A stretch of DNA of 64,000 nucleotides from Acetivibrio saccincola (GTDB lineage: Bacteria > Bacillota > Clostridia > Acetivibrionales > Acetivibrionaceae): positions 2,232,001 to 2,296,000 of the forward strand of contig NZ_CP025197.1 of the NCBI RefSeq assembly GCF_002844395.1, read 5' to 3'. How positions within the stretch are numbered: position 1 is the stretch's first letter; every line of letters starts with the position of its first letter. Both the position numbers and the translations under genes were made by a program. Under the pieces are notes generated by a model. That model was given only the letters and a program-made list of their open reading frames with translations. It ran no database searches and was not told where the DNA came from. This document shows, piece by piece, positions 39,885 to 41,694 of the stretch.

Positions 39885-41207
39885 CTATCGTTTTAAGTTA
39901 ACCAATTCCTGAAGCATTTCATCTGATGTGGTTATAATTCTGCTGTTTGCCTGGAATCCTCTTTGAGTTATAATCATATCACTAAACTCTCTAGAGAGGT
40001 CAACATTTGACATTTCTAAAGTTCCCGGATTCAAAGTTCCTACACTTCCCATACCTGCCCTTACAGCTTTGGTAAAATCACCTGAGTTGGTGGTTGGAAG
40101 ATACATGTTGTTTCCAACTTTTTGTAACCCTGCCGGGTTTTCAAAGGATGCCAGTGCAATTAAACCTAAAGGCTGCTGCTGGCCATTGCTGTAAATTCCA
40201 GTTATTATTCCATCAGCGCCTATATTGAAAGTAACCAATGATCCTGTTGAGTATCCGTCAACACTTATAGGCTTTACAGAGCTGTCTCCTGAATACATTG
40301 TAAGCCCTGAAAAATCAAGTTTAATTTCTATAGGTTCGCTTCCTACACTTTCATCCGGCTCAATTGTTATTAATGGAAAAACTTCATCTTCATTATCTTT
40401 GATAATTTGACCTTTGCTGTCAAACCTTATACTTCCGCTAGCCGCAGTATCTAAGTCTCCACTAGAAGGTATTTCCCAGTACCAAGTTGTTTCTCCTCCT
40501 GCAACACTTTCTTTCCAGAAATTTATATTTATTTTATAGTCATTACCCAGAGAGTCGTATACAGTAACTGGAACCATAAACTGTATATTAGTATCATCCC
40601 TGTCTCCAGGATCTATAGCCGGATAAGATGAGTCAAGGTTTCCTACAAATACCGCACTGGTGGTAGCCCTTGCAGCAATCATTCTCTTATTGCCGTTATG
40701 GGAATCAGAAAAAAGATTTATTGGTTCTATAGGGTTTTCTGTATCAAATGTATATGTACCATCTGCTTCCCTTTCATAGGCTTGCCATCCATATACATTC
40801 ATCCCGTTTCCGGTTACAAGGTTTCCATGCTTGTCAATTCCGAAATTCCCTGCCCTGGTAAAGCGGAATGTATCACTGCTTCCGCCTCTTACTATAAAGA
40901 ATCCGTCTCCTTCTATGGAAAGGTCTGTAGGGTTGTCCGTCCTTTCAATACTTCCTCTTGTGGTTATGGTATCTATAGTACCTATGCCTATACCCAGTCC
41001 TACCTGCATAGGATTTGTACCCCCACGTCCGGTGGTTGCATCAGGAGCACTGGCGCCGCTTAGGGTTTGATTAAACACTTCCTGGAAAGTAACCCTTCCT
41101 GACTTAAAAGCTACTGTGTTTACGTTTGCAATATTGTTACCTATAACGTCCATTCTTGTTTGGTGGGTACGGAGCCCTGACACTCCTGAAAACATGGATC
41201 TCATCAT
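39885..41207 (-). CDS. flgE: flagellar hook protein FlgE
   Basis: Structural protein of the hook, 440 residues. N-terminal rod/hook motif MFSGVSGLRTHQTRMDVIGNNIANVNT in part (about 4-31); D1/D2 region with SIEGDGFFIV and later NNMYLPTTNSGDF; and the C-terminal segment NVDLSREFSDMIITQRGFQANSRII in part. Length suggests one extra outer domain relative to short FlgE/FlgG. AGGAGG lies 11 bp before the ATG, directly beside the structured leader described next. Confidence 0.95.
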   Translation of the reverse strand: MMRSMFSGVSGLRTHQTRMDVIGNNIANVNTVAFKSGRVTFQEVFNQTLSGASAPDATTGRGGTNPMQVGLGIGIGTIDTITTRGSIERTDNPTDLSIEGDGFFIVRGGSSDTFRFTRAGNFGIDKHGNLVTGNGMNVYGWQAYEREADGTYTFDTENPIEPINLFSDSHNGNKRMIAARATTSAVFVGNLDSSYPAIDPGDRDDTNIQFMVPVTVYDSLGNDYKININFWKESVAGGETTWYWEIPSSGDLDTAASGSIRFDSKGQIIKDNEDEVFPLITIEPDESVGSEPIEIKLDFSGLTMYSGDSSVKPISVDGYSTGSLVTFNIGADGIITGIYSNGQQQPLGLIALASFENPAGLQKVGNNMYLPTTNSGDFTKAVRAGMGSVGTLNPGTLEMSNVDLSREFSDMIITQRGFQANSRIITTSDEMLQELVNLKR

Positions 41208-41220
41208 AATTTTACGACCT

Positions 41221-41295
41221 CCTTTAAGTCAGTCTATTCCTTCTGTCAATCGGGAATAGGCAGCTTCCCTAAAAGGGTCCGGCTGCATGACTTAA
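41221..41295 (-). ncRNA. three-way-junction RNA element in the flgE leader, candidate cis-regulator
   Basis: The minus-strand RNA can form three stems. P1 pairs UUAAGUCA (41295-41288) with UGACUUAA (41231-41224), 8 perfect pairs. P2 pairs GCAGC (41286-41282) with GCUGC (41264-41260) and holds an inner CCC/GGG stem with a UUUUA loop and a CGGA/AA internal loop. P3 pairs CUAUUCC (41259-41253) with GGAAUAG (41240-41234) and has a 12-nt loop. Linkers are one, zero and two nucleotides. P1 closes one base before the AGGAGG of flgE. It matches no riboswitch class I can recall. Confidence 0.6.
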
Positions 41296-41304
41296 TTAAT
41301 AATT

Positions 41305-41694
41305 TTATACTATTACTGCACCGTCAATATTGGTAAATACATTTTCCTTAAGCTCTTCATTGTTTACGGCGGTTATAACTACATTGTTTTTTACACTTAC
41401 CACAAATGCCATATTATCCATCAATACAAGTGAATCCCTTACTCCTTTGTTTCTGGCTTTTTCGATGGCCTTTGATATTTTTTCCTTTTGTGCGTCGGTA
41501 AGTTTAATTTCCCTGCTTTCAAGCCTTTCTTTTGCATGTTTTGAAAATGTCACATTAAGCTTTTCTTCTGTCTTGCTTTTAAGTATCTCTTCAAAACTTC
41601 CAATCTGCCGGCTCTCAGGTCTTTTTGGAAGGTCAGCTTTATTTTGACGGGATATTCTTCCCACATTGGCATAATAATTATTGTTTATAATCAT
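41305..41694 (-). CDS. TIGR02530-type flagellar operon protein
   Basis: Conserved protein of 129 residues found only in flagellar operons of Firmicutes and spirochaetes, between flgD and flgE. The core is FSKHAKERLESREIKL (about 50-65), followed by a helix and LVLMDNMAFVVSVKNNVVITA in part. It overlaps flgD by one base. A role in hook assembly is suggested by position only. Confidence 0.85.
   Translation of the reverse strand: MIINNNYYANVGRISRQNKADLPKRPESRQIGSFEEILKSKTEEKLNVTFSKHAKERLESREIKLTDAQKEKISKAIEKARNKGVRDSLVLMDNMAFVVSVKNNVVITAVNNEELKENVFTNIDGAVIV

Follow-up and report, generated by a model that had tools for sequence, protein, structure and literature searches.

A conserved two-hairpin RNA element in the leaders of flgE and flgG, with Flg_new as its candidate protein partner

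The leader of the hook gene flgE in the window (the whole stretch of 64,000 nucleotides of Acetivibrio saccincola analysed here) carries a conserved RNA element made of two consecutive hairpins, which is also found upstream of flgG in many lineages. From sequence comparison, we propose that this element is a cis-acting mRNA structure controlling the translation of flgE (hook) and often of flgG (distal rod), its likeliest binder being the flagellar protein Flg_new; we give this reading a probability of about one half. We put forward a little more tentatively that Flg_new could represent a new class of RNA-binding regulators and could form, with the RNA, an ancient flagellum-specific module setting the distal rod and the hook in at least two phyla.

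Architecture of the Element

The element and all its parts lie on the minus strand, in a 97-nt gap with flg_new upstream and flgE downstream. The former gene (TIGR02530, Pfam Flagellar_put; 41305..41694) encodes a protein of 129 aa, the candidate trans partner, and the latter (39885..41207) encodes a hook protein of 440 aa, named by similarity and operon context. The 54-nt core of the element (41233..41286) is delimited by an alignment of 52 leaders, by covariation and by a match to the covariance model R1, which was built from these 52 leaders. Hairpin H1 (41260..41286) is composed of an outer stem, an internal loop in which GGA (41278..41280) is opposite A/G, an inner stem and a variable tip. 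Hairpin H2 (41234..41259) is composed of a 7-bp stem and a 12-nt loop (41241..41252) containing three invariant GA doublets with a 2-nt spacing. In its own genome, the element is the single R1 match (70.1 bits, the window being among the R1 training sequences), and a DNA search of this genome matches its own position only, with no second place.

The sequence-only reading had described a three-way junction made of three complementary arms, with a closing stem, P1, ending one base before AGGAGG. The three arms are indeed present, on the minus strand. The lowest-energy fold of the window leader is as described, with P1 pairing 41288..41295 with 41224..41231, then H1 and H2. This fold has an energy of -27.3 kcal/mol (z -2.47; 4/200 shuffles as good), and the 88-nt stretch folded alone gives a z of -1.92 (11/200). 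The perfect 8-nt arms of P1 are nevertheless weak evidence alone, because arms of this length or longer are found in 15/500 shuffles of the 97-nt gap. Since the best folds of four relatives (G002, G003, G009 and G007, the last two after 5' trimming of their leaders) show H1 and H2 in 4/4 and P1 in 0/4, P1 is regarded as confined to this genome within the scope of the comparison: its two arms are unconserved, the junction that it would close is rejected, and what is conserved is the pair of hairpins. The z-scores of these four leaders are modest (-2.14, -1.70, -1.20 and -0.61), and neither hairpin is visible as such in the centroid structure of G007. The Shine-Dalgarno AGGAGG of flgE (41218..41223) directly adjoins P1, without the intervening base that had been reported.

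Covariation and Fixed Letters

FlgE was matched in 58 of 60 genomes searched (the genome of the window among them), paralogues counted, and 53 flgE leaders, the window's own included, were examined. The same two hairpins are found in 52 of them, one of which (L077 in G028) was admitted to the alignment by a looser pattern. The exception, L072 in G027, has flgE without the element or any flg_new match and is omitted from the alignment; L085, at a contig end, was left unused, and L161 and L222 are one place. Covariation in related flgE leaders had been set beforehand as a check on the structure, and the pairs of H1 and H2 do covary. In a plain MAFFT alignment of the 52 leaders, 97.8% of the cells are paired and 11/15 pairs show two-sided changes, while 0/500 shuffles reach any of five measures. 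Larger alignments, which were fitted to the model structure and are hence biased towards it, give 96.9% paired cells and 14/15 pairs with two-sided changes for 80 sequences (0/500 shuffles on all five measures), and 97.1% and 13/15 for 99 sequences (0/500 on four measures and 9/500 on the number of two-sided pairs). The arms predicted to be kept in relatives are thus kept and covary as far as H1 and H2 are concerned, P1 being the one that is lost. Covarying stems that precede the same genes in distant taxa, as found here, are one mark of a structured cis-regulatory leader.

Several unpaired letters are fixed. Each G and each A of the three GA doublets is found in 52/52 and 99/99 sequences, and the order of the H2 loop in the 99 sequences is N-GA-NY-GA-(C 76, T 19, A 4)N-GA-N. 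In H1, the alignment columns C5, G7, G8, C10 and G43 are invariant (each 99/99), and in the internal loop GG is found in 99/99 and the following A in 87/99. Such fixed unpaired letters suggest a specific ligand.

Some copies deviate from this description. Three matches, in an Alkaliphilus and two Clostridiales MAGs (L141, L142 and L165), are 70-74 nt long and have an insertion with extra complementary letters in the H1 tip, which tolerates extension. One flgE copy (L199, G286:C1:621395-621447) is degenerate in the H2 loop and scores 29.7 bits with R1, unlike the flgG copy of the same genome, which is intact.

Comparison with Known RNA Families and CsrA Sites

The earlier reading could not match the structure to c-di-GMP-I/II, purine, TPP, SAM, PreQ1 or ZTP sequences, and we found no Rfam match either: searching Rfam 15 with the window stretch (E up to 5), with four loci and with 10 diverse loci (E up to 1) brings no family near its gathering score. 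The sole matches are PYLIS_3, with 13.1 bits for a gathering score of 38, and snoR64, with 23.4 bits for 45 and off the element. No description of it appears in listings of open-licence literature on the element, flgE/flgG control, RNA motif lists and flg_new, and a word search of the main texts of three RNA discovery papers (PMC8632094, PMC11109978, PMC6429828) finds neither flgE nor flagella nor hook.

A CsrA-type GGA site, which had also been suggested, is not borne out by the 99-sequence alignment. CsrA/RsmA sites contain an invariant GGA in a loop. Here, the loop letters vary: the third base of the H1 GGA is A in 87, T in 8 and C in 4 of the 99 sequences, and a G precedes the first GA of the H2 loop in just 42/99, which makes a CsrA site unlikely. 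We regard the element as a new RNA family within a known kind, the structured mRNA leader, and its candidate partner as a possible new RNA-binding protein.

Distribution across Genomes

R1 matches 52 of the 60 relatives, most of which served to train it, and, at E up to 0.01, 152 of 398 genomes sampled from the phylum; R2, a model built from 90 wider matches, matches 264 of the same 398. One family of mostly 5-7 Mb genomes contains the element in 36/40. When FlgE-related loci with named records are considered, 50/79 are matched by R1 (E up to 0.05), including records of Acetivibrio, Ruminiclostridium, Alkaliphilus, Lutispora, Tissierella, Selenomonas and one Mitsuokella. R1 also matches a Geobacteraceae MAG that is distant from its training set (31.9 bits, E 1.8e-5). 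In the phylum of this MAG, matches to R2, whose training included that one MAG, are found in 11/247 genomes, and 10 of the 12 matches lie before flgE, in 10/247 genomes.

Two matches in this phylum are of another sort: L237 (G558) was rejected as an apparent chance match, and L238 (G622:C24:257778-257833, minus strand), the second R2 match of its genome, lies just after a 296-aa ORF with no gene downstream. Elsewhere, one contig of G024 carries two copies with equal scores, one on each strand (G024:C28:78521-78573 and 127078-127130); its flg_new and flgE matches are doubled too, perhaps by assembly duplication.

Genes Downstream of the Element

The genes that follow the element are almost exclusively flgE and flgG. 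Among 183 element loci, a set partly found through FlgE, 135 are located before flgE, 45 before flgG and three before neither, of which L100 and L275 are contig ends and L116 is a genuine oddity. The RNA model alone finds 126 places, with the identical L298 and L299 counted once, and these are distributed as 78 before flgE, 45 before flgG and three before neither, two of these being contig ends. Of the 150 listed R2 matches in the 398-genome sample, 59 were placed by their proximity to flg_new, being no more than 250 nt downstream of it, and the next gene was examined singly for the other 68 + 23; all these 91 are at flgE or flgG but for L275 and L289, where the contig ends after flg_new. By tblastn, 28 matches of the 68-match subset precede flgE and 38 precede flgG. 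Many flgG copies have a different H1 tip with compensating changes.

The oddity, L116 (G041:C292:8200-10300), is an extra strong copy at 994-1046 on the minus strand (63.3 bits), which precedes a 170-residue ORF with no family above cut-off, neither flgE nor flgG; misbinning is possible, because this draft has about 530 contigs.

The placement of the element bears on the nature of its ligand. A compact fold with invariant loops near a ribosome site could also be that of a small-molecule riboswitch regulating hook and rod production, but no metabolic gene was found beside the element among the places examined and no Rfam family matches it, and we regard this as very improbable. A protein ligand is favoured over a small molecule because the element is placed at flgE and flgG only and co-occurs with one flagellar protein (see below). 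The earlier expectation of a riboswitch or protein-binding leader is thus retained as a structured, probably regulatory, flgE leader, and abandoned as a junction closed by P1.

The two targets share another property. FlgG and FlgE are needed in more copies than the products of their operon neighbours. An element acting on mRNA processing or stability, by which these high-copy rod and hook subunits would be made in larger amounts than the neighbours, would be consistent with such targets; it would, however, leave the invariant loops and the tie to flg_new unexplained, and we consider it improbable, if less so than a riboswitch.

Co-occurrence with flg_new

The preferred reading, in which the element is bound by Flg_new, draws on the joint distribution of the RNA and the gene. 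TIGR02530 is found in 280 of the 398 phylum genomes and in 0 of 14 control genomes, and the element is found in 262 of these 280 and not detected in 18 (E 0.01). Only G392 and G405 of the 398 have the element without a TIGR02530 match. To see whether this association merely mirrors the presence of flagella, fliP was searched in 80 of the 118 flg_new-negative genomes, namely the first 78 together with G392 and G405, which were added because they carry the element, an addition that works against Flg_new as a partner; fliP is found in 37 of the 80, and only one of these 37 flagellated genomes (G405) contains the element. In the control set, Bacillus subtilis 168 has fliP. Moreover, in the six families where both states exist (f42, f57, f59, f70, f92 and f125), the element tracks flg_new each time. 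In several negatives that are drafts, the element and flg_new could be missing together through a single gap, but G320, G144 and G179 are single contigs. As genomes share ancestry, all these counts overstate the number of independent events.

The same association is observed in the phylum of the Geobacteraceae MAG, where flg_new is above cut-off in 10/10 true carriers, that is in 10 of the 11 genomes with a match, the exception being G558, and in 0/69 tested non-carriers (the first of 236 in list order, not selected for flagellation), one of which, G540, has a weak match below cut-off.

Among the 18 phylum genomes with flg_new in which the element was not detected, seven belong to one genus (G211, G238, G263, G336, G359, G381 and G402), with 11 others; the element is either lost or too divergent in these genomes.

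Linkage alone does not explain the co-occurrence, because flg_new is upstream of 0/45 flgG copies of the element and because G413 has its flgE copy of the element on contig C44 and flg_new on another contig. Taken together, the unlinked flgG copies, G413 and the co-occurrence point, by association, to Flg_new and the RNA being related in trans.

This relation might be indirect. The partner could be another protein of the same flagellar type, such as an export chaperone, FlgE or FlgG themselves, or a ribosomal or k-turn binder, with flg_new only accompanying this type of flagellum. FlgE and FlgG both belong to the axial proteins that the flagellar apparatus exports, and the GA-rich loop would fit a k-turn-like recognition; the tight tie between the element and flg_new, in a comparison of co-occurrence made for flg_new and fliP alone, argues against such a partner, which we hold to be unlikely.

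The main rival arises from the position of the element, because it abuts the upstream stop in most flgE loci. A ribosome terminating on flg_new (or flgF) could melt or protect H1 and thereby set initiation on flgE (or flgG), without any dedicated binder. In line with such a coupling, the flg_new ORF ends at most 400 nt upstream in 129/135 flgE loci, with a median distance of 2 nt between its stop and the element and at most 20 nt in 103/129, and at flgG the upstream stop has a median distance of 12 nt and is within 20 nt in 27/44. Termination coupling would nevertheless need less than loop letters fixed in 99/99 sequences, has to accommodate stop-to-element distances of up to 137 nt, and gives no reason why the flgG copies track flg_new. 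Overall, we judge it rather unlikely, yet the most serious of the alternatives.

The Flg_new Protein

Flg_new, the partner that we favour, corresponds to Pfam Flagellar_put in 97/100 members. Its residues S51, H53, R57, T108 and D124 are invariant, and its net charge is +5 in the window member, with a median of +4. The next Pfam family by member number is DUF4258, for which 38/100 proteins give a match at E up to 0.1, with a best E of 9.6e-4, below cut-off; membership of this family was rejected, as the curated cut-off is not reached. For the window protein, the DUF4258 match is 14.5 bits for a cut-off of 25, and DUF6547 ranks above it (E 0.0011, 19.7 bits, cut-off 27). DUF4258 is, we assume, akin to RelE-type RNA-acting proteins, and the weak likeness to it is a possible hint of an RNA-acting fold, to be taken as a lead only. 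A PDB profile search with Flg_new brings only weak matches to an unrelated protein (E 0.19 and above).

Alternative Pairing of the H1 5' Strand

The 5' strand of H1 (GGACC + tip; 41270..41279) is complementary to the Shine-Dalgarno stretch, and in the window leader the resulting duplex is nearly as stable as H1 (-11.2 vs -11.4 kcal/mol). To judge this complementarity, the pairing energy of each leader's own strand was compared to that of exchanged strands, the 12-nt strand used having been picked after its complementarity was noticed. In 132 flgE leaders, own pairing is -9.17 kcal/mol vs -8.04 for exchanged strands, with 0/2000 exchanges as low; the controls give 8/2000 for the reversed strand, 769 for shuffled letters and 1909 for the H2 loop. 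With one leader per distinct strand (n=101), the result is 0/2000 (reversed, 74). When exchange is confined to clusters of related genes, it is 0/2000 within 29 clusters (127 leaders; reversed, 87), 0/2000 within 63 clusters (103 leaders; reversed, 383) and 16/2000 within 90 clusters (68 leaders; reversed, 364), where the effect is weaker. No own-pairing effect is found in the 41 flgG leaders (1167/2000), and the best duplex spans at least 4/6 Shine-Dalgarno letters in 89/132 flgE leaders and in 13/41 flgG leaders. An H1 pairing switch is thus plausible for flgE and unproven in general.

Proposed Function

Under the reading that we favour, the element would control translation of flgE and, in many lineages, of flgG. 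A trans factor would read the fixed unpaired letters, namely GGA opposite A/G in H1 and the three GA doublets in H2. Flg_new, whose gene usually ends a few nt from the flgE copy of the element, is the most probable candidate for this factor. At flgE only, and with moderate support, the H1 5' strand could have two alternative pairing partners, one inside H1 and the other the Shine-Dalgarno stretch. A factor holding H1 and H2 folded would then leave the ribosome site open, and in its absence the site could close; Flg_new may act in either direction, on or off.

If this reading is true, post-transcriptional control of the hook and distal-rod genes would have a defined site in many bacteria, a role would be found for a small family of flagellar proteins so far described only as "putative flagellar", and the timing and dosage of hook production would become open to direct test.

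Relation to Known Systems

The closest known systems are other structured leaders that, in the mRNA of a structural gene, lie close to the ribosome site, namely ribosomal-protein leaders and the hag leader of B. subtilis with CsrA and FliW. The latter is also flagellar, and a protein ligand is likely to be a common trait. The element differs from both by its fold and its letters, by a GGA that is not kept as CsrA would need it, and by its candidate partner, Flg_new.

Two RNA motifs are also worth comparing. In kink-turns and k-loops, tandem G.A pairs stand beside a non-standard N.N pair, and the H2 loop, whose letters are compatible, could be read in this way, with the difference that a third invariant GA doublet lies between. 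The guanidine-II riboswitch is, like the element, made of two short tandem hairpins, but the element has no Rfam match, other loops and flagellar targets.

As regards the target gene, an sRNA processed from Campylobacter flgE mRNA, described in PMC11187230, is a different matter. Post-transcriptional regulation of flgE translation was proposed by Lee and Hughes, according to PMC8036289. In the Salmonella case, as cited there (Lee and Hughes, 2006), flgE translation is, as we propose for the element, separated from translation of the neighbouring gene in the operon, and the sequences concerned are the end of flgD and the flgE ribosome site. Unlike this Salmonella control, the element is a separate conserved RNA, located after flg_new and found before flgG as well.
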